Positions 3,612-27,128 of a stretch of 37,254 bases of DNA are shown one piece after another; position 1 is the stretch's first letter; every line of letters starts with the position of its first letter. The notes beneath the pieces were generated by a model. The model was given only the letters and a program-made list of their open reading frames with translations. It did not search any database and was not told where the DNA came from. The position numbers were made by a program, and so were the translations under genes. Source of the stretch: a virus; IMG/VR virus record IMGVR_UViG_3300025645_000191, positions 1-37,254 of that record. One strand, written 5' to 3'.

Positions 3612-4244
3612 ATGAGAATATTAGTAGCATGTGAAGAAAGTCAAGCAGTAACAATTGAATTACGAAAACTAGGTCACGAGGCTTTTAGTTGTGACTTGTT
3701 AGAACAAAGCGGAGGTTATCCGGAATGGCATTTTAAAGAAGATATGTTTGAGGTTATAAAAAGAGAGCCTAAATTTGATTTAATGATAGCTTTTCCTCCT
3801 TGTACAGACTTAGCCGTTAGCGGTGCCAGGCATTTTGAAAGAAAACGTTTAGACGGAAGTCAGCAAAAAAGTATTGAGTTTTTTATGAAAGTAATTAATG
3901 CAGACGTCGAAAGAATTGCAGTTGAAAATCCTATTGGTATAATGAGTAGTTTATATAGAAAGCCTGACCAAATTATTCAGCCTTGGCAGTTTGGAGATAA
4001 AGCACAAAAAAGTACCTGTTTGTGGTTAAAAGGATTAAATAAATTAGAACCTACTAAAATTGTTGAAAAAGGAGAGTTTAAAGAATTGATTTGTAAAACT
4101 ACCGGAAAACAAAAAAGACAGGCTTTATGGTATTATGAAGCTCTTTTAAAAGCAAAAACACCCGAACAAAGAAGAACATTAAGAAGTAAAACATTTCCAG
4201 GTATAGCAAAAGCAATGGCTGAACAATGGACTAAAATAATTTAA
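3612..4244 (+). CDS. DNA cytosine-5 methyltransferase (phage type)
   Basis: This encodes 210 residues, compact for the family. It starts with MRILVACEESQAVTIELRKL (SAM-binding motif region). The catalytic motif IV is FPPCTDLAVSG with Cys64, and motif VI is VENP at 104-107. Short proteins of this layout are known in phages as C5-cytosine methyltransferase-like enzymes. It probably modifies phage DNA against host restriction. It ends the first early operon, just before the promoter at 4251-4282. Target specificity cannot be read. Confidence 0.8.
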   Translation: MRILVACEESQAVTIELRKLGHEAFSCDLLEQSGGYPEWHFKEDMFEVIKREPKFDLMIAFPPCTDLAVSGARHFERKRLDGSQQKSIEFFMKVINADVERIAVENPIGIMSSLYRKPDQIIQPWQFGDKAQKSTCLWLKGLNKLEPTKIVEKGEFKELICKTTGKQKRQALWYYEALLKAKTPEQRRTLRSKTFPGIAKAMAEQWTKII

Positions 4245-13119: not shown

Positions 13120-13424
13120 AACTAACAGGTAAAACAAAAGAAGCGTTTGAGAAGTGGTTCTATAAAGAAATTGATCAAATAGGCGGTGAAGGATTAGACG
13201 ATGTGACAGATTTACATTTAAACGCATTAATTATTGAATTCTTTGATTCGGTTGGATACACTATTGACAGAGATTCTTATAATAGAAAAATGACAATAGT
13301 AGATTGGAATGACGGAAATGAAACTCATTATACTATTGATTGCGAATATTTAGATCCGTTTACTGATTGGTGGGATAAAGCAATTGAAAAGGCAAATGAT
13401 ATTTACAACAATAAACTTGCATAA
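13116..13424 (+). CDS. Hypothetical acidic protein
   Basis: This encodes 102 residues, acidic, with Trp-rich stretches (IVDWNDGNETHYT, DPFTDWWDKAIEKANDIYN). The start overlaps the preceding stop (ATGA). It is soluble and of unknown function. It is the last gene before the promoter of the sigma-like gene. Confidence 0.6.
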   Translation: MKLTGKTKEAFEKWFYKEIDQIGGEGLDDVTDLHLNALIIEFFDSVGYTIDRDSYNRKMTIVDWNDGNETHYTIDCEYLDPFTDWWDKAIEKANDIYNNKLA

Positions 13425-13447
13425 TTAAATATTAATAACTACGTTTG
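13416..13447 (+). promoter_or_regulatory. Bacteroidota-type promoter of the sigma-like gene
   Basis: CTTG (13416-13419), a 20-base spacer and TACGTTTG (13440-13447) fit the host consensus with one mismatch in the -33 box. The ATG of the next gene is only 4 bases after the -7 box, so the transcript would begin at or next to the start codon. Confidence 0.75.
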
Positions 13448-13451
13448 CTTT

Positions 13452-13898
13452 ATGATTTTAGAAGAGCTTTCAAAAAAAGATAAACTTTGGCGTAGTATTG
13501 CATTTAATATTTGCAAAGACAAATCGTTGTCTGATGAGTTAACGCAACAAATGTATGTAAAAGTATATGAAGTATCTTTAAAAAGAAACATAGACACAAA
13601 TGACTACTACATAGCTAAAATACTTTTAAATTTATTTATAGATTATATTAAAGAAAATAAAAAGTTTGTAACAAATACAGAAGTTATTAGTCTTATAAGT
13701 AACGATGAATCATTTACAATGGATGATGAGCAATTAAATATAATTAACGATTTATCATTCATAGAAAAAGAATTAATCTTATTAAATGAAAATTTAAGCT
13801 ATCACGAAATACAAAGAAAGTATAATATAAATTATCAATTTGTTAGAAGGGTAATTTTAAACGTAAAAAATAAACATGGCAAAAAAGAAAGTAAATAA
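13452..13898 (+). CDS. Sigma-70-family-like regulator
   Basis: This encodes 148 residues. Residues 10-40 (KLWRSIAFNICKDKSLSDEL, then TQQMYVKVYE) match sigma region 2, and 100-140 (LSYHEIQRKYNINYQFVRRV) match the region 4 helix-turn-helix. The size fits small ECF-like or phage sigma-like proteins. It lies just before the terminase and structural genes and is transcribed from a host-type promoter with almost no 5' leader. A role in switching on late genes is inferred; no experimental support is visible. Confidence 0.65.
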   Translation: MILEELSKKDKLWRSIAFNICKDKSLSDELTQQMYVKVYEVSLKRNIDTNDYYIAKILLNLFIDYIKENKKFVTNTEVISLISNDESFTMDDEQLNIINDLSFIEKELILLNENLSYHEIQRKYNINYQFVRRVILNVKNKHGKKESK

Positions 13899-14508: not shown

Positions 14509-14793
14509 ATGGCATTTGAAAAAGGAAATAAACTAGGTAAAGGTAGACCAACTAAAGCAGATGAAGAAAAAGCTAATACAATAATGCTTAATGCTTTAAA
14601 AGAAGTTTACTCAAAAGAAACAGATGAGGATGCTAAGATTGCATTTATCAAAGATACTTTAATGGATAGTCAAAGAGGTCAACTATTTATAGCTGAGCAT
14701 GTATTTGGTAAACCAAAAGAAACAATTGAAACAACGCACAACGTTAATAACTTTGATATAAAAGACTTGTTTAAGGTTGATAAAGATACATAA
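14509..14793 (+). CDS. terS: Terminase small subunit
   Basis: This encodes 94 residues. The N-terminus FEKGNKLGKGRPTKADEEK is characteristic of one class of small terminase subunits, which recognise phage DNA and hand it to the large subunit. The central part is helical and the C-terminus (NVNNFDIKDLFKVDKDT) is probably the large-subunit contact. It overlaps the large subunit gene by 17 bases. Confidence 0.75.
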   Translation: MAFEKGNKLGKGRPTKADEEKANTIMLNALKEVYSKETDEDAKIAFIKDTLMDSQRGQLFIAEHVFGKPKETIETTHNVNNFDIKDLFKVDKDT

Positions 14794-15979
14794 CAAATAT
14801 AATTTACTTGGTTCGGATAGCAGATACTTTGTCATTACTGGTGGTAGGGGTTCAGGGAAATCATATTCTCTTAACTCCTTTTTGCTATTGTTAACGTATG
14901 AAGTAGGACATGTTATATTATTCACTCGTTATACATTAACTTCTGCTCACGTATCAATTATACCTGAGTTTTTAGATAAGATTGAAACGGCTAATTTGCA
15001 ACAAGATTTTTACATCACTAAGGATGAAATCATAAATTTAAAGACTGGATCTAAAATATTATTCAAAGGTATTAAAACAAGCTCAGGAACACAAACTGCA
15101 AACCTTAAATCTTTAGCGGGTGTTACTACTTGGGTATTAGATGAAGCAGAAGAGCTTAACGATGAAGATACATTTGATAAGATTGATTTTAGCATTAGAG
15201 CAAAGGATATTCAAAATAGAGTTATATTAGTTTTAAATCCAGCAACAAAAGAACATTTTATTTATAAACGTTTCTTTGAAGAAAAAGGAGTTGAGGCTGG
15301 AGCAAATGAAATTAAAGAAGATACAACTTATATTCATACTACTTATTTAGATAATTACAAAAACTTAAACGAGTCATTTATTCATCAAGTTGAGTTGATG
15401 AAAGAAAACAACCCAAACAAATATAAACATGTAATACTTGGTGGTTGGTTAGATAAAGCAGAAGGAGTTGTATTTGATAATTGGGAGTTCGGAGATTTTA
15501 ATCCTGATAATTTACAAACTTCATTTGGTCAAGATTTTGGATTTACAGTTGATCCAACTACATTAGTAGAGGTTGCAATAAATAAGAATAAAAAGATAAT
15601 ATATGTTAAAGAATATCTATATAAAAATAGATTGACTACTTCTGAAATAGCAACTATAAACATAACTCACGCACAAAGAAAAATAATTATTGCAGATAGT
15701 GCTGAACCTAGGTTAATTGATGAACTAAAGAAATTAGGATGTAATGTTATTGGAACTATAAAAGGTGCTGGAAGTATTAATGTAGGTGTAGAATTGATGA
15801 AGGACTATAAAATAATTGTAGAACATAACAGTTCAAACATAGCTAAAGAATTAAATAACTATGTTTACCTTGATAAAGGAAGTAAATTATATATTGACGA
15901 CTATAACCATATAATTGACGCAATAAGATATAATGTGAGTTACTATTTAAGTAGTGGAGGTGTCGGAGAAATTAGATAA
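14777..15979 (+). CDS. terL: Terminase large subunit
   Basis: This encodes 400 residues. Walker A is GGRGSGKS (22-29) and Walker B is TTWVLDEAEE (117-126), forming the ATPase. The nuclease half has Asp253 (GQDFGF), Asp307 (IIADSAE) and Asp388 (HIIDAIRY), the acidic triad of the RNase-H-like domain of the Terminase_3/PBSX-like family. It pumps DNA into the prohead and cuts it. It is followed by a late-promoter-like element. Confidence 0.93.
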   Translation: MIKIHNKYNLLGSDSRYFVITGGRGSGKSYSLNSFLLLLTYEVGHVILFTRYTLTSAHVSIIPEFLDKIETANLQQDFYITKDEIINLKTGSKILFKGIKTSSGTQTANLKSLAGVTTWVLDEAEELNDEDTFDKIDFSIRAKDIQNRVILVLNPATKEHFIYKRFFEEKGVEAGANEIKEDTTYIHTTYLDNYKNLNESFIHQVELMKENNPNKYKHVILGGWLDKAEGVVFDNWEFGDFNPDNLQTSFGQDFGFTVDPTTLVEVAINKNKKIIYVKEYLYKNRLTTSEIATINITHAQRKIIIADSAEPRLIDELKKLGCNVIGTIKGAGSINVGVELMKDYKIIVEHNSSNIAKELNNYVYLDKGSKLYIDDYNHIIDAIRYNVSYYLSSGGVGEIR

Positions 15980-15982
15980 ACC

Positions 15983-16012
15983 TTGTAACAAAATAACAAT
16001 TAATTAGTTTTA
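15983..16012 (+). promoter_or_regulatory. Candidate phage late promoter A
   Basis: TTG (15983-15985), a 19-base spacer and TAGTTTTA (16005-16012) come 5 bases before the ATG at 16018. The 16-base core TTGTAACAAAATAACA (from 15983) is identical at 24108 and nearly so at 26782. The -7 box lacks the final G of the host consensus. Confidence 0.6.
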
Positions 16013-16017
16013 ATAAT

Positions 16018-16617
16018 ATGAAGATAGTATTACCAGAAAATATAGCAGATATAACTTTAGAGCAAGAGCAAAAATATAATAAGCTATTGCAACGTGAGGA
16101 TTTATCTGATTATGAAAAGAACAGAAGGAAGTTAGAAATATTTACTAATCTTACTTATCATCAAACAAAAGATATTATTCAAGTAGATTTTGAAGAGTGT
16201 TTAATTCAAATTAACAAAGCATTAAGTGAGGATGTTCCATTCTTAAATAGGTTTAAAATGAATGGTCAAGAGTTTGGGTTTATAACTAATTTAGATAAAC
16301 TAAGCTCAGATGAACAAAACGCTTTAGATAATATTTCTTTAGGTGAGTTTGTTGATACTGAAAAGTATAACGCAAGTTTAGATGATATGCATAAGTTAAT
16401 AGCTATATTATTCAGACCAGTAATAAAATCAGATGCATTTGGTAATTATGAAATTGAAGAGTACAACGGGACAACTGAATGGTGTGAGTATATGATAAAG
16501 ACACCATTAAATATTGTAAGAGGTGCGTTATTTTTTTTTATCAATTTGTCAACAGAATTAGAGAGTTATATCCTGAGATATACGAGGGAGGTACAAGCGA
16601 AGGAAACGACAGTTTAG
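16018..16617 (+). CDS. Tail assembly chaperone, unshifted product
   Basis: This encodes 199 residues. The pattern MKIVLPENIADITLEQEQKY, FGFITNLDKLSSDEQ, LHKLIAILFRPVI and TPLNIVRGALFFFINLS is typical of the Bacteroidota phage protein taken to be the analogue of lambda gpG. Such proteins bind the tape measure protein and the tail tube during tail assembly. Near the end nine T lie in frame as TTT TTT TTT, and the -1 frame continues with a conserved-looking domain to 16805. It lies 6 kb from the tape measure gene, unlike the usual neighbouring order. Confidence 0.7.
   Translation: MKIVLPENIADITLEQEQKYNKLLQREDLSDYEKNRRKLEIFTNLTYHQTKDIIQVDFEECLIQINKALSEDVPFLNRFKMNGQEFGFITNLDKLSSDEQNALDNISLGEFVDTEKYNASLDDMHKLIAILFRPVIKSDAFGNYEIEEYNGTTEWCEYMIKTPLNIVRGALFFFINLSTELESYILRYTREVQAKETTV
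16531..16539 (+). other. T9 slippery site for -1 frameshift
   Basis: Nine T lie in the zero frame as three TTT codons, followed by ATC. Slipping back one base gives TAT CAA TTT and enters an open frame to TGA 16803-16805. The zero-frame stop is at 16615-16617. The shifted product has 174 shared plus 88 new residues, 262 in all. Confidence 0.65.
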
Positions 16618-16805
16618 AGTATTTTAAAAAATGGAGTTGGTACGCTACAATAGTAGAATTAAGTAATGATAATATACATAAAGTAAAAGATACTTTAAAA
16701 CTAAACGTACATGAGGCTCATTTGTTTTTAGCTCATAAAATTGATAAGATGAAAATGATGCACAAAGTACACACACCACCACAAGGAAACACAACACAAT
16801 TATGA
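16539..16805 (+). CDS. Frameshift extension of tail assembly chaperone
   Basis: This -1 frame reads YQFVNRIRELYPEIYEGG, then SLEYFKKWSWYATIVELSND and VHEAHLFLAHKIDKMKM, ending at TGA 16803-16805, which overlaps the next ATG. The phrase KWSWYATIVEL, with a later N(V/I)HEA, is like the C-terminal extension of chaperone pairs in related phages. There is no start codon or gap that would make it an independent gene of equal length. It corresponds to the T part of a lambda-type G-T fusion. Confidence 0.65.
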   Translation, partial: YQFVNRIRELYPEIYEGGTSEGNDSLEYFKKWSWYATIVELSNDNIHKVKDTLKLNVHEAHLFLAHKIDKMKMMHKVHTPPQGNTTQL

Positions 16806-17260
16806 ACCAATATACAGAACTATTAATATATTTAAAAACATTGGCTAAATTATACGGAGCTAATACAGTTACTAAAGACGCTCCAGATAGTGTTGATTTA
16901 CAAAAGACTAATATATTTCCATTAGTCAATATATCAATCGCTAACGGATCATTTAGCAATGGTTCTACTATTTCTTTTAATGTAGTGTTAGAAGCTATAA
17001 CTAATCGAGATGCAAATAAAGAAGTTGTTGATGATAAGTTTTGGAGTAATGATAATGAAGTAGATAATCACAACGATACTTTAGCTATATTAAATAAAAT
17101 GTGGGTTGCTATGTATAGAGATTTTGAAGATAAGAACATTACTTCAAGTGAGTCGCCTACATTTGAAAAGATTACTTTAGACGGTACAAATCTATTAGAT
17201 GGATGGGAGTTATCATTTGATGTTGAACTGCCTAATACAACATTAAATCTATGTCAGTAA
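16802..17260 (+). CDS. Tail completion-like protein
   Basis: This encodes 152 residues. The arrangement DLQKTNIFPLVNISIANGSF, then SFNVVLEAITNRD, then LAILNKMW and LLDGWELSFDVELPN, matches Bacteroidota phage proteins that follow the tail chaperone and have the layout of tail terminator proteins. The role at the head-proximal end of the tail is inferred. It overlaps the frameshift extension by four bases and the next gene by ten. Confidence 0.55.
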   Translation: MNQYTELLIYLKTLAKLYGANTVTKDAPDSVDLQKTNIFPLVNISIANGSFSNGSTISFNVVLEAITNRDANKEVVDDKFWSNDNEVDNHNDTLAILNKMWVAMYRDFEDKNITSSESPTFEKITLDGTNLLDGWELSFDVELPNTTLNLCQ

Positions 17261-17769
17261 AGAAAGCATTAGATGACTTTGGTAAGTATACAGTTAAACA
17301 AGCTAGGACAAACTTAACTAAGAAGAAAAAGAACGATACTAAAGGATTATATAATTCAATTAGTTATGATTTAGAGGTTTCAAAGAATAGTTTTAGTCTT
17401 TCATTCTCAATGGATGGGCATGGTAAGTTTATTGACAAAGGAGTTAAGGGCGTTAGTAGTTCAGCAAAAGCTCCAAATAGTCCTTACAAGTTTGGAACAG
17501 GAACAGGAAAAAAAGGAGGTTTAACTAGTGGTGTTGATGGATGGGTTAAGCGTAAAAGAATACAATTTGCAGATAAGAAAACAGGTAAATTTATGAGCTA
17601 TAAACAAACTGCATATCTAATTAGAAATAGCATTTGGAATAAAGGAATTGAAACAACTAACTTCTTTACAAAGCCATTTGAAGATGCTTTTAAAAGATTG
17701 CCGGATACATTAATAAACGCATTTAGTTTAGAGGTTGACAACCTATTTAATTTTACAAATAAAAAATGA
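17251..17769 (+). CDS. HK97 gp10-like tail protein
   Basis: This encodes 172 residues. The basic N-terminus (KQARTNLTKKKKNDTKGLYN), followed by GHGKFIDKGVKGV and a helical C-terminus, matches the gp10-like family of head-tail or tail completion proteins. Overlaps on both sides place it firmly in the tail operon. The precise location in the virion is not given by the sequence. Confidence 0.65.
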   Translation: MSVKKALDDFGKYTVKQARTNLTKKKKNDTKGLYNSISYDLEVSKNSFSLSFSMDGHGKFIDKGVKGVSSSAKAPNSPYKFGTGTGKKGGLTSGVDGWVKRKRIQFADKKTGKFMSYKQTAYLIRNSIWNKGIETTNFFTKPFEDAFKRLPDTLINAFSLEVDNLFNFTNKK

Positions 17770-18536
17770 TAAAAAATTTAAGCCCATATTATGTAACCAT
17801 TCCGTTTGTTGCTCCATTGAGTGGGTTAACTTGTAGTGAGTTCACTATGCAGTTGTTCGTTTGGAATGGTTTGAAATCTACACCACCAACAGAGGCTTTA
17901 TATGAGTTCACAAAACAAAACCCTACTTCAAGCGTGGGGAGTGTAAAGGTAGATATTGCTAATTTAATAAGCGATGCAATTATATTTACACAACAAGAGG
18001 GTACGGGTACGGAATTAATAAATGGGAATAATCAAGTTTGGGTTAAATGGAGAACTTTTTATAAAACTACAAACCCAATAGACAACACAACGCCTACAAA
18101 TATAAATACAACATTATCTTTAAAAGGATATGCGTATGGATTTGATGGAGAAAATACAATTACACCAACTAATAAAATATTATTAACAGGTACTGATTTT
18201 AAAGTTAGTAGAAATTCAGTTTTTGTATTACCTATTGAAATCGAACAAACTACAATAGTACTTGGTACTTTAACTATTGATAATTTAACAGTTGTTACTC
18301 ATCAAATGTATGATTTAGATTGGTCGAGTACAGGTAATTTAGGAGATATTTATTATCGTTATAGGTTGTTAGGTGATACAGATTGGTTCTTTGGACTTGA
18401 AACTGTTATAGATGATCCACAAGAAATTGAATTAGACGTTGATGCTGGAACTTATGAAGTGCAATTACAGGCATACGATAATGATAATTCAGTAGTAATA
18501 TTTTCAAACATTTTTAATTTAGAAATAGTATCATGA
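17766..18536 (+). CDS. Tail structural protein with Ig/FN3-like domain
   Basis: This encodes 256 residues, nearly all beta. Residues about 165-256 (LDWSSTGNLGDIYYRYRLLG, then VDAGTYEVQLQAYDND) resemble a fibronectin type III or Ig-like domain, as is common in tail proteins. The N-terminal half is of unknown fold. It is probably a tail tip or decoration component, inferred from composition and place. Confidence 0.55.
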   Translation: MIKNLSPYYVTIPFVAPLSGLTCSEFTMQLFVWNGLKSTPPTEALYEFTKQNPTSSVGSVKVDIANLISDAIIFTQQEGTGTELINGNNQVWVKWRTFYKTTNPIDNTTPTNINTTLSLKGYAYGFDGENTITPTNKILLTGTDFKVSRNSVFVLPIEIEQTTIVLGTLTIDNLTVVTHQMYDLDWSSTGNLGDIYYRYRLLGDTDWFFGLETVIDDPQEIELDVDAGTYEVQLQAYDNDNSVVIFSNIFNLEIVS

Positions 18537-19111
18537 TTATAACAGTAATTTCATATCCTAATAATAATATAAACTTTTCAGATGATGTCGGTAATTCTTT
18601 ACTTAGTAGTGAGTTAGTTAAATATATGTGGATAGATTTATCAGAGGCTTTAGATGATGAGTATGTTGAGATAGTTTACAATGGGGTTACTACTACTTTA
18701 TTAATTGAAGATGAGTGCAGATATACACCAATAGATATATTCTTTCAAAATAAAGAAGGAGCTGAGCAGGTTATTACTTTCTTTAAAAAATCAATTGAAA
18801 CTTTAAAGACTACTAGTGAAGAGTATGAAGGTACTAACGGACAACCTTTAAGCGGATTTCACCAATTTATTAAATATAATGTTCAAGGTAGACAATCGTT
18901 TAAGGTTAATAGTGGTTTTGTAACAGAAGATAAAAACGAAACATTTAAACAATTACTTTTAAGCAGAAGAGTTTGGAGTTATGTAGATAGCAAATTCATT
19001 CCCTTAAACGTATCAAGTGAAACAATAGAATATAAAACAAAGCAAAACGATAGACTAATTAATTACGAAATTGGTTTTGATTATGCTTTTAACGAGATAA
19101 ATAATGTTTAG
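18533..19111 (+). CDS. Putative distal tail structural protein
   Basis: This encodes 192 residues of unknown family, beta-rich. It overlaps the genes before and after it and precedes the large tail tip protein. This position and order are kept in Bacteroidota phages, where such a pair forms the tail end. No enzymatic motif is seen. Confidence 0.5.
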   Translation: MIITVISYPNNNINFSDDVGNSLLSSELVKYMWIDLSEALDDEYVEIVYNGVTTTLLIEDECRYTPIDIFFQNKEGAEQVITFFKKSIETLKTTSEEYEGTNGQPLSGFHQFIKYNVQGRQSFKVNSGFVTEDKNETFKQLLLSRRVWSYVDSKFIPLNVSSETIEYKTKQNDRLINYEIGFDYAFNEINNV

Positions 19112-21431
19112 TTTATACATAGGAGAAAGTAAGTTAGATTTATTTTCAGATGAGAATATAGAACTTACTCAGCAAATTGGTAGCGTTTCAGATATTACCA
19201 AAAACTTAGGCGATTTAACGCGTTCTTTTTCTGTTCCAGCAAGTGAAAATAACAACTCGCTATTTAAACACTATTACAATGCTAATATAGATAATACTTT
19301 TGATGCACGTACAAAGGTAAACGGAACTATTGAGCTTAATGGGATGCCATTTTCTAACGGTAAATATAGACTTGAAAAGGTAATCGTTAAACAAGGAAAA
19401 CCTTATTCTTACTCTTTACAATATTGGGGAAATTTTATAAGTATAAAAGATAAAATAAAGAATGATGAGTTAAGTATTTTAGATTTATCAGCATACAATC
19501 ACGCTTATAATTCTACAAATGTAAAGACTGGTTTAACAGGTAGTTTATTTGGAGGGGATATTATATATGCTCCATTAGTAAAGAAACAATATTACTATAA
19601 CGATAACGGCACAGATTCAACTTATAATAGTAAGTTAGCAAACATTGCGCACGCAAACGGTGGTAACGGCGGTATGTATTGGGCTGATTTTAAACCAAGC
19701 ATTAAATTATTACCTATTATAGAAGCGATTGAAAGTAAATACAATCTATCCTTTACACGTGATTTCTTTGGACGTAGTGAGTTTACAGATATTTATATGT
19801 GGTTAAACAATACTTCAAGTGCAGAAGTTAGTAAGAAGTTGCAAATAGATTTTACAAGTACTGGTAATATTTTGGATATAGCAGGCACTGAAATGAGCTT
19901 AACAGAGGACTACTATGTGGTTGGCTCTTCAAATTCAAATGTAAAAATAAATATAATACCAAGTGCTGGATTTGAAAATGTGCCTTACAAAGTTATTCGT
20001 AATTTAGACGGTGCATTGTGGACTGAATCAATTACACTTACAGGAAATACAGTCACGCAATTTAGAACAGATACAGATAAAAAGAAACATACTTTCTTTG
20101 TTGAAACTTCTTTGTCTTTTAAATTTACTACTGTGTTTATTGTTACCGTTCCATTAGGTGGATTAACAAAGACGGCTACATTTAATGAGCAAACAATAAA
20201 CCTAGACATAAATATAAATACTAATTTACCAAAAATAAAAGTTATTGACTTTTTAGCTGGTTTGTTTAAGATGTTTAAATTAGTTGTCATAGCTAAAGAT
20301 GACGGAACAATTTATGTAAATACTTTAAAAGATTATTATGCAGAGGGTAGGGTTTGGAATCTAACTCAATACATAGATGCATCAAGCTATGAAGTTGAGC
20401 GTGGCAAACTATTGAACCCTATTAACTTTAATTTTGAAGAGCCTCAAACATTATTAAACATTCAATTTGATGCTAATACAGGACAGTATTATGGAGATGA
20501 GGAATTAATATTAGAAGATGATGAAGGAGAGCAACTAGATGGAGAAAGCTATGAGGTTAAATTACCATTTGAACAAGTGATTTACGATAGATTAATAAAT
20601 ATAAATACTGGAGGGACTAGTTCATTTATGTATGGGGGTATTTTTGACGAGAATATAGAGCCTGTAAATCCTAAAATACATTTACATTACGTACAAAACA
20701 CAACACTAAACGGAACTGGTTTAGCGTATGTTAATGACTTAGGAACAAAAGAGTTAATAGATGGCAATATAAATATACCAACACATACAAGTTCTTTTGA
20801 AGATGCTCCGTTTTCTTTGGTTTGGGGTAATGAATTTAATGAATGGAACGGTCAAATAATTGAAAATACTCTTTATAAAAACTATTATAGTGATTATATC
20901 TCAAGTGTTTTTAATATAAAAAGAAGAACGTTTAAATACAAAGCAAAAGATATACCATTAAGAATAAGATTGTCGCTTAAACTTAATGATATAATACAAA
21001 TAAAAGAAAACTATTACAGACCTGATAACTTCACTACTAATTTAAAAACGGGTGATGTGTCTTTTAGTTTAATTAACTCATTTGATAATACAATTTCAGG
21101 ATTTTCAGCAGATAGAAATATAATTAATACAGACTATCAAGCTAAAATAGAAAGTATCTATGTAACAAATGGAGGTAATTTTAGTTTTAATAAAGTAGAT
21201 ACGGGTGATGGAGTTAGTTGGGTAGTTGTTTCAAGCTTAGATAATAATGTTTATTTTTCTTTTGAAGAAAATACTGGAGTACTACCTAGAATTATGGAAG
21301 TTGAAATAACAAATACTTTAACATTCCAAACTATAACAATAGTTTTAAATCAAGGAGTTAGTGGAAGCTACACCGCTGATACTACATTAATAACCGCAGA
21401 TAACACAATAATAACAGCAGATAATTTTTAA
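19104..21431 (+). CDS. Large tail tip/hub-like protein with BACON-like domain
   Basis: This encodes 775 residues. The start (ELTQQIGSVSDITKNLGDLT, then RSFSVPAS and later FDARTKVNGTIELNGMPF) is a signature of large Bacteroidota phage tail proteins. Residues about 678-753 (IESIYVTNGGNFSFNKVDTG, WVVVSSLD, ITIVLNQGVSG) fit a BACON-like Ig domain, which in Bacteroidota is thought to bind glycans or mucin. The extreme C-terminus repeats the phrase TADNTIITADN. It probably forms the tail hub or tip and helps host recognition. Confidence 0.7.
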   Translation: MFSLYIGESKLDLFSDENIELTQQIGSVSDITKNLGDLTRSFSVPASENNNSLFKHYYNANIDNTFDARTKVNGTIELNGMPFSNGKYRLEKVIVKQGKPYSYSLQYWGNFISIKDKIKNDELSILDLSAYNHAYNSTNVKTGLTGSLFGGDIIYAPLVKKQYYYNDNGTDSTYNSKLANIAHANGGNGGMYWADFKPSIKLLPIIEAIESKYNLSFTRDFFGRSEFTDIYMWLNNTSSAEVSKKLQIDFTSTGNILDIAGTEMSLTEDYYVVGSSNSNVKINIIPSAGFENVPYKVIRNLDGALWTESITLTGNTVTQFRTDTDKKKHTFFVETSLSFKFTTVFIVTVPLGGLTKTATFNEQTINLDININTNLPKIKVIDFLAGLFKMFKLVVIAKDDGTIYVNTLKDYYAEGRVWNLTQYIDASSYEVERGKLLNPINFNFEEPQTLLNIQFDANTGQYYGDEELILEDDEGEQLDGESYEVKLPFEQVIYDRLININTGGTSSFMYGGIFDENIEPVNPKIHLHYVQNTTLNGTGLAYVNDLGTKELIDGNINIPTHTSSFEDAPFSLVWGNEFNEWNGQIIENTLYKNYYSDYISSVFNIKRRTFKYKAKDIPLRIRLSLKLNDIIQIKENYYRPDNFTTNLKTGDVSFSLINSFDNTISGFSADRNIINTDYQAKIESIYVTNGGNFSFNKVDTGDGVSWVVVSSLDNNVYFSFEENTGVLPRIMEVEITNTLTFQTITIVLNQGVSGSYTADTTLITADNTIITADNF

Positions 21432-21434
21432 GAT

Positions 21435-22010
21435 ATGGCACAAGAAATAATAGGAATTGGAATAAGTGCAAACGATAATACTGGAGATCCATTGCGTACT
21501 GCATTTACAAAGACAAACGATAATTTTGCAGAACTTTATTCTCCAAAAATTGGAATATATGATTATGATAGCACTCTAGGAAGTCAATCATTTACAGGAA
21601 CTGCAATAAAATTACTAAACAATGGTTTAGGTGCATTTACAAATAAGATTTATGCTTTAGATGGAGTTACTGACTTATTTAACACAACTACTAATGAATT
21701 TGATTTTAGTGGTTTATCTTTAGGTGATAGGGTAGCTTTTAGATATGATTATCAAATAACAACATCTTCAGTTAATCAAGAAAGTAGAATTTATTTAAAT
21801 CTAGGTATTGGAAGCGGTTCGCCTTATTCAATTAATCAAGACACTAGTTTTTTTAAAACTGCTGGAGTACATGAATTATCAGGGGCAAATAGTTTTATTT
21901 ACATGGGTAATTTAGAAACTTTGAATTTTCCATCCGAATTAATGTTTACCTCTGACGCAAATGCGACAGTTATACTAAACGGTTTTGTAATTTCAGTAAC
22001 AAAAAGATAA
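21435..22010 (+). CDS. Tail fibre-like protein
   Basis: This encodes 191 residues. The N-terminus IGIGISANDNTGDPLRTAFT, then KTNDNFAELY, is a standard module of phage tail and fibre proteins, in which it links to the particle. The C-terminal part is beta-rich (QSFTGTAIKLLNNGLGAFTN) with a receptor-binding-like look. It begins three bases after the tip protein. Confidence 0.65.
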   Translation: MAQEIIGIGISANDNTGDPLRTAFTKTNDNFAELYSPKIGIYDYDSTLGSQSFTGTAIKLLNNGLGAFTNKIYALDGVTDLFNTTTNEFDFSGLSLGDRVAFRYDYQITTSSVNQESRIYLNLGIGSGSPYSINQDTSFFKTAGVHELSGANSFIYMGNLETLNFPSELMFTSDANATVILNGFVISVTKR

Positions 22011-22011
22011 T

Positions 22012-22164
22012 ATGATAGGCGAAATAATAAGAACGTTAAGGAGTAACGAGTTTTACGGAGCTGGTGAATTTACAGAAATTGCAAAAGGTAAACATGAATT
22101 GGTTAATAATTGGAAGCAATTTAAAAACAAAGCAACAAGACTATGGCACTCACAAAAGAAATAG
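22012..22164 (+). CDS. 50-residue protein before tape measure
   Basis: This frame fills the gap between the fibre-like gene and the tape measure gene and overlaps the latter by 22 bases. The product is mixed (MIGEIIRTLRSNEFYGAGEF) with a basic end. It is of unknown function. Confidence 0.5.
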   Translation: MIGEIIRTLRSNEFYGAGEFTEIAKGKHELVNNWKQFKNKATRLWHSQKK

Positions 22165-24101
22165 AAATAAAAGTAAACACTTCAGGTGCAGTTTCTAATG
22201 TTAATAATCTTAATAAAGAAATAGGTAATACAAAAAAAGAAACAGAAGAGAGCGGTGCCGCATTATCTGGAATGTCTGGTAAAATAGATAGCCTAACAGG
22301 TGGTGCGATTACTAAGTTTAAAGGATTGACAAGTGCTTTAGGTGGTGTCGCAGGTGGTTTTAAAAGTATTGGAGCGGCTATTGCTTTAAGTGGTTTAGGT
22401 TTATTAATTATTACAATTGCGGCAGTAGCTTCGGCATTTAATTCAAGTGAAGAAGGGCAAAACAAATTTGCCAAGTTAATGGGAGTTATTGGATCTGTAA
22501 CTGGTAATTTAATTGATTTACTTTCTGATTTTGGAGAGCTTGTTATTTCAGTTTTTGAAAACCCTAAAAAAGCTATTGAGGACTTTGCTAATCTTATAAA
22601 GCAGAATATAGTTAATCGTTTTAATGGACTATTAGAGTTAATTCCACAACTAGGCAAGGCAATTGGTTTACTTTTTGAAGGTAAATTTGTTGAAGCTGGT
22701 AAGGTTGCGGCAGATGCGGCTGCAAAAGTAACACTAGGAGTTGATGGAATAAGTGCAAGTATAGAAAATGCGACTAATAAAACAAAGTCATTCATTGCAG
22801 AACTTCAAAGAGAGGCTGCAATTGCGGCTCAAATAGCAGATAAAAGAGCAAAAGCGGATACGACAGAAAGAAATTTAATTGTAAAGAGGGCTGAGGCAGA
22901 TGAAAAGATTGCAATACTTAGAGAAAAATCATTATTAAGGGATCAGTTTTCAGCTAGAGAAAGAATTAAATTTTTAAAAGAGGCTTCAAGTATTGAGGAA
23001 AATATAACTAATAAAGAAATACAAACTGCAATATTAAGGCGTGATGCAATAATTGAAGAAAATAAATTATCTAAATCTAACAAAGAAGCATTAAGAGAAG
23101 AGGAAGAGTTAAAGGCAAAAGTAATACAATTAAATACTTCAAGATTACAAGGTCAAAGACGTTTAACTGCATCTATTCAATCATTACAATTAGAAGAACA
23201 AGGTGCTTATAAAGCAACTGCTGATGCAAGAAAAAAGATTACAGAAGATGAAAGAAAGTTAAAAGAGGATGCAATTAAAAAAGACTTTGACGCAGCTAAA
23301 GTTATAAGCGATAAAGCTAAAGAAGAAAACTTAACAGAGTCAAGAACTGCTATTGAAAACCTTACAGCTAAATATGAAGAGGAAAAATTATTGCTAGAAA
23401 AAAGTAATATGGAAACCTTAGATTTAGAAATTCAATACTTAAACAACCTAAACGATTTAAATGTAGCTGCTGGATTAATCGAGTTAGAAAATAAAAAGAA
23501 AAAAGAGGCTGAATTAAAAGCAATTGACGACAAGGCAAAAGCAGATCAAATAGCAGCAGAAAAGGCAGTTGCAGACGCAAAAAAAGAAATACAAGATTCC
23601 ACTATAAATAATATAAGTTCAGGGATTAATTTAATTTCTCAATTAGCTGGTAAAAATAAAACATTGCAAAAGGCGTCTATTATTGCAGAGAGTGCTTTAG
23701 GTATAGGTAAGTCAATAATAGCCACTACATCATCAAACATAGCAACTGTTGCTCAGGGTGCTGCTTTAGCGATTCCAACAGGCGGAGCGTCTGTTGCTGC
23801 TGCTGGCGCATTAGTTACTGCAAATAATATAGGTTTAGGAATTGGTATTGCTTCAAATATTGCTGCAACTGCAAAAGCGTTAAGTTCTTTAGGAGGTGGT
23901 TCTGCTCCAACAGGCGGCTCTGTTCCAACAGGTGGTGCAGCAGCTCCGTCTTTTAACCTAGTACAAGGAACAGGAAGCAACCAGATTGCACAAAGTTTAG
24001 CAACAGATAGACAACCTTTGAAAGCTTATGTAGTGTCTTCAAGCATTACAAGTCAACAAGAATTAGATAGAAATGCAAACAACGAGGGAACAATTGGTTA
24101 A
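22143..24101 (+). CDS. Tape measure protein
   Basis: This encodes 652 residues. The start is ALTKEIEIKVNTSGAVSNVN. A hydrophobic segment at 75-99 (SIGAAIALSGLGLLIITIAA) is followed by long charged coiled-coil stretches (about 215-510), then a Gly/Ala-rich hydrophobic segment (about 525-600). This is the usual tape measure layout. At about 0.15 nm per residue it would set a tail near 100 nm, an inference from the known rule. It lies downstream of the tip and fibre-like genes rather than before them. Confidence 0.85.
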   Translation: MALTKEIEIKVNTSGAVSNVNNLNKEIGNTKKETEESGAALSGMSGKIDSLTGGAITKFKGLTSALGGVAGGFKSIGAAIALSGLGLLIITIAAVASAFNSSEEGQNKFAKLMGVIGSVTGNLIDLLSDFGELVISVFENPKKAIEDFANLIKQNIVNRFNGLLELIPQLGKAIGLLFEGKFVEAGKVAADAAAKVTLGVDGISASIENATNKTKSFIAELQREAAIAAQIADKRAKADTTERNLIVKRAEADEKIAILREKSLLRDQFSARERIKFLKEASSIEENITNKEIQTAILRRDAIIEENKLSKSNKEALREEEELKAKVIQLNTSRLQGQRRLTASIQSLQLEEQGAYKATADARKKITEDERKLKEDAIKKDFDAAKVISDKAKEENLTESRTAIENLTAKYEEEKLLLEKSNMETLDLEIQYLNNLNDLNVAAGLIELENKKKKEAELKAIDDKAKADQIAAEKAVADAKKEIQDSTINNISSGINLISQLAGKNKTLQKASIIAESALGIGKSIIATTSSNIATVAQGAALAIPTGGASVAAAGALVTANNIGLGIGIASNIAATAKALSSLGGGSAPTGGSVPTGGAAAPSFNLVQGTGSNQIAQSLATDRQPLKAYVVSSSITSQQELDRNANNEGTIG

Positions 24102-24107
24102 ACATTT

Positions 24108-24137
24108 TTGTAACAAAATAACACTTTAATAGTTATA
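24108..24137 (+). promoter_or_regulatory. Candidate phage late promoter B
   Basis: TTG (24108-24110), a 19-base spacer and TAGTTATA (24130-24137) come 5 bases before the ATG at 24143. The 16-base core TTGTAACAAAATAACA matches element A exactly. It separates the tail genes from the capsid genes. Confidence 0.6.
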
Positions 24138-24142
24138 ATAGT

Positions 24143-25249
24143 ATGACAACCTACGAAGCAGAATTTAACGAGGAAGAAGTAGCTGGAGTTTATGCCATTA
24201 GTTTGGTAGAATCGCCAGCAATGGAAGGTAATTTTATTGCATTAAATAAACAAGAGGCTATACAATTTAAGGAAGTTGATGTAGAGCAACGCATTTTAAT
24301 GGGTTTGGTTTTAGAACCTAACAAACCAATTTATAGAAATCAAAACGGGGAGGAATTTAATATTGTTTTTAGCGAAGAAACTATTAAAAAATTAAGCTAT
24401 AACTTTTTCAAATCTAACTCACAAAAAAATTCTACAATTGAGCATGATGCAAAGCAAAGAATTGAAGGAGTTACTTTTGTTGAAAGTTGGTTAGTTGAGA
24501 ATCCTGAAAATGATAAGTCTTCAAACTTTGGCTTTAGTTATCCAAAAGGCAGTTGGGTTGCAACTATGAAAATAGACAACGATGAAATTTGGAGTGGTTA
24601 TGTTAAGACGGGAAAAGTAAAGGGTTTTAGTATTGATGCTATGCTCTCTTTAAAAGAAGTAAATTTTAAATCAAATATAAATATGTCAGAAGTTATTGAA
24701 AAAAATAACACTCTTTTAGAACGTTTGAGTTTTGCTTTAGGCATTACAGATAAACCAAAAGAAGAAGTAGTTATTAAATTAGGAACTATCAAGTCAATGG
24801 ACGGGCAACTAACATACGAGTTCGATGGAGATGCTCCAGCAGTTGGTTCTAATATGTCAGTAGTTGCAGAAGATGGTACAAAAATACCTGTTCCAATCGG
24901 AGAGTATGAAGTCGAAGGTGGTGCAATTGTAGTAGTTGCAGAAGAGGGAATTATTGCAGAGATTAAAGAAGTAGTTGCAACGGATGTTCCAGCACCTATG
25001 TCAGAAGCTCCAACAGTTTCAGCGACTCCAGAAGTTGAAAGCGATTTAGAAAAAGCTATCAAGTCTATTTTAGTAAAGTATTCAGAACAAAACAAATCTG
25101 AATTTGATGCTTTAAAATTAGAGTTGGCAGAAACTAAAAGTAAATTAGTAGAGTTATCAGCACAACCAAGTGCGAAACCTATTAAGGCTACACCAACACA
25201 AACAGGAACAAAATTAACATTAACACAAAGAATTAATAACAAATTATAA
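24143..25249 (+). CDS. XkdF-like prohead protease with scaffold-like C-terminus
   Basis: This encodes 368 residues. AGVYAISLVESPAMEGNFIA (14-33) is the hallmark of XkdF-type proteins. STIEHDAKQRIEGVTFVESW and GYVKTGKVKGFSIDAML continue the family domain to about residue 175. A charged linker and a helical C-terminus (about 300-345) look like a scaffold. The PBSX XkdF family is thought to act as prohead protease; catalytic residues cannot be fixed from here. It is followed directly by the major capsid gene. Confidence 0.7.
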   Translation: MTTYEAEFNEEEVAGVYAISLVESPAMEGNFIALNKQEAIQFKEVDVEQRILMGLVLEPNKPIYRNQNGEEFNIVFSEETIKKLSYNFFKSNSQKNSTIEHDAKQRIEGVTFVESWLVENPENDKSSNFGFSYPKGSWVATMKIDNDEIWSGYVKTGKVKGFSIDAMLSLKEVNFKSNINMSEVIEKNNTLLERLSFALGITDKPKEEVVIKLGTIKSMDGQLTYEFDGDAPAVGSNMSVVAEDGTKIPVPIGEYEVEGGAIVVVAEEGIIAEIKEVVATDVPAPMSEAPTVSATPEVESDLEKAIKSILVKYSEQNKSEFDALKLELAETKSKLVELSAQPSAKPIKATPTQTGTKLTLTQRINNKL

Positions 25250-25251
25250 TT

Positions 25252-26160
25252 ATGGCAAGTACATTGAATATTACAACTAACTTCGTAGGGGAAGTAGCTG
25301 GTGGATATATTGCAGAAATGGTAAAAGAAGCTAACACTATTAAAGATGGTTTAGTAACTATTTTACCTAACGTAGTGTCACCGCAATTTATTAGAAAAAT
25401 TGAAACCGCAGATGGTTTTGTAGATTATGCTTGTGGATGGACTCCAGCAGGTTCTGTTACGCTTTCTGAAAAAGAGTTAGCGCCAAAGAAAATAAAAGAG
25501 GATAGGGAATTTTGTAAAGAAGATTTTAGACAGTTATGGACAGCTCAGGAAATGGGATTCTCAGCTCATAATGATAATGGATTACCAGCAACAGAACAAG
25601 CGGCTATTTTGGCTGATATTGGAGAGAGAGTAGCAAGAAAAATAGACCAAGAAATTTGGAACGGTGATGGTTCAGATGGTAAATTAGCGGGATTAATTCC
25701 AGCATTTTTATTAGACGCAGATGTAATTGATGTTGCTACTCCAGTAGCTATAACTTCTGCAAATGTAGTAGCTGAATTAGGCAAATTTATTGATGCACAT
25801 ACAGACGAAATGTTACAAGCTGAGGCAGGTCATTATTTTGGAGTTTCTACAAATGTAATTCGCGCAATTAAAAGAGCTTACGGAACACAAGCAAGAGCAA
25901 ACGGAATCTTTTTAAATCCTAATGAATTTGATTTTGAAGGATATACTTTAACAGAAATTAAAGGATTACCTTCTAATACAATGGTAGGTTATAACAAAAA
26001 TAACGTTTTCTTTGGAACTGGCTTGCTTTCTGATTTAAACGAAATTAGAGTGAAAGATATGGATGAAACTGATTTATCAGGACAGGTTAGAACTAAAATG
26101 GTTATGACTGGTGGAGTTCAATATGCTTGGGGTGGTGAAGTTGTTTTATACAAAGCATAA
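25252..26160 (+). CDS. Major capsid protein
   Basis: This encodes 302 residues. KDGLVTILPNVVSPQFIRKI, DREFCKEDFRQLWTAQEMGF and VARKIDQEIWNGDGSDGKLA are characteristic of Bacteroidota phage capsid proteins with an HK97-like fold. The position after the protease/scaffold gene and the strong terminator just after it support this. It assembles the icosahedral shell. Confidence 0.85.
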   Translation: MASTLNITTNFVGEVAGGYIAEMVKEANTIKDGLVTILPNVVSPQFIRKIETADGFVDYACGWTPAGSVTLSEKELAPKKIKEDREFCKEDFRQLWTAQEMGFSAHNDNGLPATEQAAILADIGERVARKIDQEIWNGDGSDGKLAGLIPAFLLDADVIDVATPVAITSANVVAELGKFIDAHTDEMLQAEAGHYFGVSTNVIRAIKRAYGTQARANGIFLNPNEFDFEGYTLTEIKGLPSNTMVGYNKNNVFFGTGLLSDLNEIRVKDMDETDLSGQVRTKMVMTGGVQYAWGGEVVLYKA

Positions 26161-26171
26161 TAATAACAAAT

Positions 26172-26196
26172 AAAGGGTAGTTAATTCTACCCTTTT
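26172..26196 (+). terminator. Terminator after major capsid gene
   Basis: AAAGGGTAG (26172-26180) and CTACCCTTT (26187-26195) form a perfect 9-base stem with a 6-base loop, followed by a short T run. It probably trims or reduces the transcript past the capsid gene. Confidence 0.75.
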
Positions 26197-26212
26197 AAAA
26201 ACAAATATAAAT

Positions 26213-26725
26213 ATGGCATGTGATATTACAAAAGGTAGAGCAAAAGTCTGTAAAGATAGTATAGGGGGTAATAGTAAATTCTATCCTTTTAACTATTTAG
26301 AAGATGCTTTTACCGTAGTTAATGGAGTTGCGACAGCTATAAATCCAGCATTAACAGAAGTTTTTGCTTATGATTTAGAAGGTGATGGAAACACATTGAC
26401 TCAAAATTTCGTAGGAGAAAGAGCAAACGGAACATCTATAAACACTCAAACGTTAACTTTAATTCTTAAAAAAATGGATGCATCTACAAGTGCTGAAATG
26501 AATTTAATTGTCAAAGGTTATCCAATGGGAGTTGTAAAAGATAGAAACGGAAATTATCATTTGTTGGGAGCAGATGATGGTATTGATTTTACAGTTGATG
26601 CATCTACTGGAGGAGCTAAAACAGACTTAAATGGATATACTTTAACTGGAGTTGCTACTACTGGAAGCATTGCGCCTGTTATTGATCCTTTAATTATAGA
26701 CGACTTTTTAGCCTTAGTAGTTTAG
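26213..26725 (+). CDS. Structural protein, possibly major tail protein
   Basis: This encodes 170 residues. Its start CDITKGRAKVCKDSIGG and the part MGVVKDRNGNYHLLGADDGI, with a later GGAKTDLNGYTLTG, resemble the protein at 29261, so the two are paralogues. Proteins like this are common structural genes of Bacteroidota phages and could form the tail tube. The family role is not proven. It is flanked by two strong terminators, so it has its own transcript length. Confidence 0.5.
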   Translation: MACDITKGRAKVCKDSIGGNSKFYPFNYLEDAFTVVNGVATAINPALTEVFAYDLEGDGNTLTQNFVGERANGTSINTQTLTLILKKMDASTSAEMNLIVKGYPMGVVKDRNGNYHLLGADDGIDFTVDASTGGAKTDLNGYTLTGVATTGSIAPVIDPLIIDDFLALVV

Positions 26726-26751
26726 ATTTTTAGATTGGTTATTTTAAAATT

Positions 26752-26781
26752 AAACCCTTAATTAATTTTAAGGGTTTTTTT
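26752..26781 (+). terminator. Rho-independent terminator
   Basis: AAACCCTTAA (26752-26761) and TTAAGGGTTT (26768-26777) form a perfect 10-base stem with a 6-base loop, then T to 26781. It is immediately followed by late promoter element C, marking the end of one transcript and start of the next. Confidence 0.85.
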
Positions 26782-26811
26782 ATGTAACAAAACAACATTA
26801 ATTTAGTTTTA
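26782..26811 (+). promoter_or_regulatory. Candidate phage late promoter C
   Basis: ATG (26782-26784), a 19-base spacer and TAGTTTTA (26804-26811) come 5 bases before the ATG at 26817. The core ATGTAACAAAACAACA differs from elements A and B at two bases. It lies directly after a terminator, as expected of a promoter. Confidence 0.6.
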
Positions 26812-26816
26812 ATAGT

Positions 26817-27128
26817 ATGAACGTAGTCAATCCAAACAACACAACGCATACATTAACATTGGTACCTCGTTATTACGTTAGTGGTACTGTTGATTTATTT
26901 TTATATAATGAATCGACAACAGAGGAAACAAATGTATCTAATCTATATCTTATTGAAGATGGATATTTAACTATTACTTTTGATTTTACTTTTTTAGATC
27001 GTGATAAATATCAATATAAATTAGTAAGTGATTTAGAGATTGTTTACAGGGGTTTAATATTTGCCACAAGTGAAGATACAGAAAACTATTTAACAGATAA
27101 TAATACATACACTTACTACAATGAGTAA
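26817..27128 (+). CDS. Small head-region protein
   Basis: This encodes 103 residues, nearly all beta (TLTLVPRYYVSGTVDLFLYN). It starts five bases after late promoter C and overlaps the portal gene by eight bases. It probably has a structural or head-completion role by position. No family is recognised. Confidence 0.55.
   Translation: MNVVNPNNTTHTLTLVPRYYVSGTVDLFLYNESTTEETNVSNLYLIEDGYLTITFDFTFLDRDKYQYKLVSDLEIVYRGLIFATSEDTENYLTDNNTYTYYNE

Follow-up and report, generated by a model that had tools for sequence, protein, structure and literature searches.

Sigma factors encoded by phages and promoters dedicated to late genes are already known from other systems. In Salmonella phage 7-11, the sigma factor SaPh711_gp47 works with the host core polymerase on bipartite late promoters (GTAAtg-16-aCTA), the early promoters are of host type, and transcripts start 6-9 bp past the promoter (PMC8948821). 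In phiEco32, middle and late genes are served by the phage-encoded sigma factor gp36, which lacks homology to sigma region 4 and reads a single-element promoter, tAATGTAtA (PMC8948821). In promoters of extracytoplasmic function (ECF) sigma factors, the -35 box typically contains AAC and the -10 box CGT, and the ECF41 promoter combines TGTCACA, a spacer of 16 +/- 1 and CGTC/TGTT (PMC3426412). Here we analyze a virus record of 37,254 bases with a G+C content of 29% (IMGVR_UViG_3300025645_000191; the window), in which three copies of a bipartite element stand directly before late genes. We consider it likely, judging from sequence, that these elements are ECF-type late promoters read by the phage's own sigma factor, encoded at 13452, together with the host core polymerase; this ECF-like form would be new for Bacteroidetes phages.

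The window virus infects Bacteroidetes bacteria. It matches the phiEco32/7-11 type in having a sigma-like gene and a repeated late motif, a likeness of layout. The proposed use of a phage sigma factor with the host core, and a spacer of 16 nt, are shared with 7-11, which is, however, an enterobacterial podophage with other boxes and with promoters not reported as leaderless (PMC8948821). The nearest cultured phages are the Nonlabens phages P12024S and P12024L (Inhavirus), whose terminase large subunit (TerL) and portal are 61% and 42% identical, respectively. They share the gene order, a sigma-annotated gene before the terminase and an element version of their own, but differ in the downstream box (CGTTAATA) and in a spacing mostly one base longer. 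A search of open-access papers turned up no account of late promoters, or of late transcription driven by a sigma factor, in phages of flavobacteria. The elements and their proposed reader are as follows.

15983..16012, plus strand: putative late promoter element 1, the ATG at 16018 lying 5 nt on
24108..24137, plus strand: putative late promoter element 2, the ATG at 24143 lying 5 nt on
26782..26811, plus strand: putative late promoter element 3, the ATG at 26817 lying 5 nt on
13452..13898, plus strand: gene for an ECF-like sigma factor of 148 aa that has sigma2 and sigma4 only and is proposed to read the elements

In element 1 the upstream box TGTAACA occupies 15984-15990 and the downstream box TAGTTTTA occupies 16005-16012. 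As originally predicted, TAGTTWTA followed by exactly 5 nt and an ATG is present at all three late starts, and a 16-base core is shared: TTGTAACAAAATAACA is found at 15983 and 24108 with no mismatch, and its third copy, ATGTAACAAAACAACA at 26782, has two. The downstream box, also as claimed, is free of the TTTG ending in 3/3 elements, the host TAHHTTTG not being matched. The TTG that had been taken for a conserved part did not stand, as the third copy has ATG and the invariant letters of related phages are ACA and GTT. The spacer, thought to be kept in both length and sequence, is conserved in length (N16 between ACA and GTT), while its letters vary across relatives.

The loose pattern TTG-N19-TAGTTWTA with up to two mismatches occurs 106 times in the window and 97 times in shuffled sequences, i.e., it is not enriched; such a consensus is not rare in an A+T-rich genome, and therefore the significance of the elements must rest on the comparison with other phages. 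A scoring matrix was built from 153 sites of other phages, the window being left out, and compared with 60 shuffles. It ranks the three elements first to third in the window (29.3, 28.6, and 25.7 bits), the maxima of the shuffles averaging 12.5 bits with a highest value of 18.7, and no comparable site was found on the minus strand of the window. The three elements are thus confirmed as real and above chance. A possible fourth element (21161..21192, plus strand; 23.2 bits, codon-shuffle p=0.004) lies inside the 3' part of the gene 19104-21431, about 240 nt before 21435 and with no ATG close by; its function is uncertain.

Whether the core is kept before the same genes in related phages was also checked, and it was found before orthologues of all three. 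The conserved core across relatives is [TG]NAACA(A)-N16-[ACT]GTTWWA, with ACA and GTT invariant (partly by construction of the search) and T[G/A]TA preceding ACA. The same two boxes were seen after TerL and before the protease orthologues. The geometry is rigid: in the upstream regions of relatives, ACA and GTT are separated by N16 at 170 unique sites, and by each of the other gaps from 8 to 24 at 2-32. Among non-redundant upstream regions, ACAA and GTTW stand at one distance in 37/77, and at the adjacent distances in none. The elements are specific to these genes: when 2.9 million viral contigs were searched for exact matches to the consensus, with no use of gene information, 37 unique sites were returned. 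Of these, 23 precede orthologues of 16018 (7), 24143 (7), or 26817 (9), mostly at 5 nt from the ATG, and in 20 of all 37 an ATG follows after exactly 5 nt.

Elements of one phage change in concert. In 44 phages with at least two sites each, different promoters of the same phage differ at 0.21 of positions in the 4 nt before ACA and at 0.28 in the downstream box, compared to 0.43 and 0.48 for the same promoter in different phages (permutation p=0.0001, which is approximate, as related phages are not independent). Private versions illustrate this: G003 has three copies of AACGTTTTA, L022 three copies of AATGTTTTTAAA, and L127 two of TGTTACA. Paralogous promoters being more alike than orthologous ones fits a single shared, phage-specific, trans-acting reader.

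The gene at 13452 had been described as sigma-like and placed just before the late region, and both points were borne out: its family is ECF-sigma-like by profile and fold, and in almost every relative it lies on the 5' side of the terminase. Homologs are present in 67/80 TerL loci; of the 61 loci with 2 kb or more of sequence upstream, 57 have one, the usual distance to TerL being 0.5-1.5 kb. In P12024S, a gene annotated as Sigma-70 region 2 precedes the terminase. The Pfam family Sigma70_r2 was matched by 20/32 homologs (best 6e-9) and Sigma70_r4_2 by three family members. Profile matches of the family in the PDB are ECF sigma factors, the best at 1.9e-7 over 145 positions, and the sigma4 domain is covered by a match to RpoE (5uxx, profile positions 12-156). 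In a structure model (mean pLDDT 81), the window protein consists of two helical parts with a linker of low confidence between them; helices lie at 103-147 in the sigma4 part, and region 1.1 and sigma3 are both absent. The top Foldseek matches of the model are ECF sigma factors, among them the sigma2 fragment of SigR (1h3l; rmsd 1.9 over 63 columns). Bacterial ECF sigma factors have the same two domains, differing in that the phage version would control viral late genes; no anti-sigma gene was identified in the phage, though no search was aimed at one.

The elements also resemble ECF promoters, including that of ECF41. TGTAACA-N16-AGTT fits the pattern in its AAC, with AGTT rather than CGT at -10, and the TGTCACA, CGTT, and TGTT of relatives fit the known variants more closely. 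The idea of a promoter read by a phage sigma factor was therefore supported but refined: the element is better described as of the ECF type (AAC / [ACT]GTT, spacer 16) than as a variant of the host -33/-7 promoter. The 13452 sigma factor very probably reads the late elements. In the proposed scheme, transcription early in infection would depend on the host polymerase carrying the primary sigma factor of Bacteroidetes, which would read TTG-N19/20-TAnnTTTG promoters, including the site at 13417-13447 before 13452. The 13452 product (sigma2-sigma4) would then join the host core polymerase and direct it to TGTAACA-N16-AGTTWTA at 15983, 24108, and 26782. Three late units would start there: 16018 onward after the terminase, the protease with the capsid gene, and the gene before the portal; in each of them, the mRNA of the first late gene would have no leader or almost none. 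Promoter activity, the pairing of protein and DNA, the leaderless start, and the timing are all predictions in this scheme. The genes concerned are the following.

14777..15979, plus strand: terminase large subunit gene, immediately 5' of element 1
16018..16617, plus strand: first gene of late unit 1, 199 aa, function not assigned
24143..25249, plus strand: first gene of late unit 2, Peptidase_S78_2 / XkdF-like (prohead) protease
25252-26160: capsid-like gene, next after the protease gene
26752..26777, plus strand: terminator-like hairpin, stopping 4 nt 5' of element 3
26817..27128, plus strand: first gene of late unit 3, 103 aa
27121-28782: portal gene, next after the 26817 gene

Several observations weigh against this scheme. 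The window protein itself matches Sigma70_r2 only at E=0.003, under the curated cut-off, the argument being carried by the family. Foldseek gave modest E-values (7.6e-4 at best), with a TM of about 0.4 over the whole chain, which may possibly result from a different placement of the two domains in the model. A recognition code, by which the base preceding GTT would depend on sigma residues 64/67 (the DxxR motif of region 2.4), looked clean in the first set of phages and failed on new contigs: the prediction, fixed beforehand, held for 22/38 new sites and not as a rule, sigma factors with DxxK being paired with A (15), C (7), and T (4) before GTT. As a consequence, the argument for the pairing is drawn from where the gene lies, its family, the type of promoter, and the concerted change, and not from a recognition code; the last of the four would also fit a phage activator.

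Such an activator is the strongest of the rival explanations, though we think it improbable: the ACA box would be the activator site, and the host holoenzyme with its primary sigma factor would use the downstream box. MotA-type middle promoters provide the model. Any phage-specific trans-acting factor would explain the concerted evolution, and the spacing of the boxes is close to the host -33/-7. The primary-sigma promoter of Bacteroidetes, TTTG / TAHHTTTG (PMC6847099), has, however, a different downstream box. The terminal G of its TTTG is missing from the phage element, and a G before TTT, virtually absent from host promoters (PMC6847099), is invariant in the phages. TAnnTTTG was found in only 3/163 related element regions, and no activator gene turned up, though no systematic search was made. 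The host type would serve the early genes of the phage. Outside genes, TTG-N19/20-TAnnTTTG is located at 833, 4252, 7020, 12283, 13417, and 32509, and from 13.5 to 32.5 kb of the plus strand such sites occur only within genes. An E. coli-type promoter scan gave no excess over shuffles. In the stretch 13440-13451, the site before the sigma gene ends so near the ATG that the sigma mRNA may be leaderless too.

13417..13447, plus strand: putative host-type promoter TTG-N20-TACGTTTG, 4 nt before the sigma gene ATG

The distance to the start codon bears both on the leader and on a second rival, a translation-initiation signal or mRNA leader element in place of a promoter. The G of the downstream box lies 11 nt from the ATG in 95/185 sites, and a second mode is found at 18-25 nt. 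In ECF geometry the G of the -10 motif is at about -12 (PMC3397946), so that a distance of 11 nt would place the transcript start at about the AUG or no more than some 2 nt from it; applied to the same elements, the geometry of host promoters (PMC6847099) would give a leader of about 2 nt. The sites of the second mode would have short leaders. The late transcripts are thus probably leaderless or near-leaderless, as distinct from the hosts, where most measured transcripts carry leaders; in F. johnsoniae these exceed 10 nt in 87% of predicted transcripts (PMC6847099). The fixed distance in more than half of the sites would also suit a translation signal, and Bacteroidetes use an A at -3 in place of a Shine-Dalgarno sequence (PMC6847099). 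We regard this reading as very unlikely, as the second mode leaves the spacing between the boxes unchanged, the elements stand before the first genes of blocks while most genes have none, element 3 directly follows a terminator-like hairpin, and a box 23-35 nt upstream matches no known initiation signal.

A host ECF sigma factor as the reader is, in our estimate, slightly less probable still. Bacteroidetes have many ECF sigma factors, and the element is ECF-like. The original prediction would be contradicted by a housekeeping promoter of this type in host genomes, and 295 genomes from the class of G015, a Bacteroidetes metagenome-assembled genome holding a related TerL, were therefore scanned with spacer N11 in the pattern. 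The window-type consensus gave a single exact match, equal to the reversed control, in these genomes, which are only a stand-in for the host; among the genomes sampled, the element is no housekeeping promoter. Moreover, the element version varies from phage to phage, and the phages carry an ECF-like sigma factor of their own beside the late region. Chance or a recent duplication of an intergenic stretch, suggested by the exact 16-mer of two copies, can be practically dismissed, as position and geometry are conserved across phages whose spacers and flanks differ.

Sigma-dependent late promoters would amount to an early-to-late switch, described at the sequence level, that a large group of uncultured phages of Bacteroidetes has in common; the cultured pair P12024S/L offers a system for testing it. 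The numerous sigma factors with their matched promoters form a natural data set on promoter choice by ECF sigma factors and could yield orthogonal promoters for Bacteroidetes, and the late mRNAs, if leaderless, would be a test of ribosome initiation in hosts free of Shine-Dalgarno sequences. In its widest form, a widespread family of Bacteroidetes phages would use its own ECF sigma factor for the late switch, leaderless late mRNAs by design, and co-evolving private sigma-promoter versions; here we see the chances as evenly balanced.

Autoregulation is common among bacterial ECF sigma factors, and the closest relative of the window may have it as well. In L287 (IMGVR_UViG_3300045742_000025; sigma 61% identical), an element lies on the reverse strand at 3791, 5 nt before the gene directly preceding the sigma gene, and a host-type site, TTG-N20-TAGGTTTG, is located just upstream of it, both before the sigma operon. 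Such tandem promoters could allow an early start by the host polymerase followed by self-amplification of the sigma factor, a course already suggested on sequence grounds for phage 7-11 (PMC4331800). Unlike in L287, the sigma gene of the window is preceded by a host-type promoter only. Late-type elements were also seen in the linker region of the sigma gene in several relatives (L020:470, L031:3534, L053:1423, L005:8671), where they may drive the terminase genes. This candidate role was not upheld for the window: the p value is 0.005, the minimum of the test, in L020, L031, and L053, and 0.17 (codon shuffle, not significant) for the weak match at 13666..13695 (plus strand) inside the window sigma gene. 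The suggestion that the element is lost where the sigma gene is absent was rejected, as the contigs are incomplete and in two of the group the sigma gene is 6-7 kb upstream.

The element persists by position and geometry among phages of approximately 40-80% protein identity, with different spacers and flanks. A sister group (L021, L022, L025, L045, and similar loci) has downstream boxes of the TGTTTT type with the G about 12-24 nt from the ATG, and predicted leaders no longer than about a dozen nt. In L063:3291, L067:3159, and L079:2933, GTCGGAANCTTGAC is found shortly before the ATG that follows TerL. P12024S (L251, NC_018271) has its own element version before several late genes.

3031, 5412, 21280, 23961, 25201, 26802 of P12024S: copies of AAAACAAA...CGTTAATA, a few nt before ATGs

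As for the remaining genes of the window, the product of 16018-16617 matches the prok_STING domain at a sub-threshold E=0.0018, probably a spurious hit. The scan for terminator-like hairpins as a whole was no richer than shuffles (5 found, 5.4 expected). A tape-measure-like gene at 22143 lies within the late region, and the gene 26213-26725 is flanked by terminator-like hairpins at 26172-26195 and 26752-26777.

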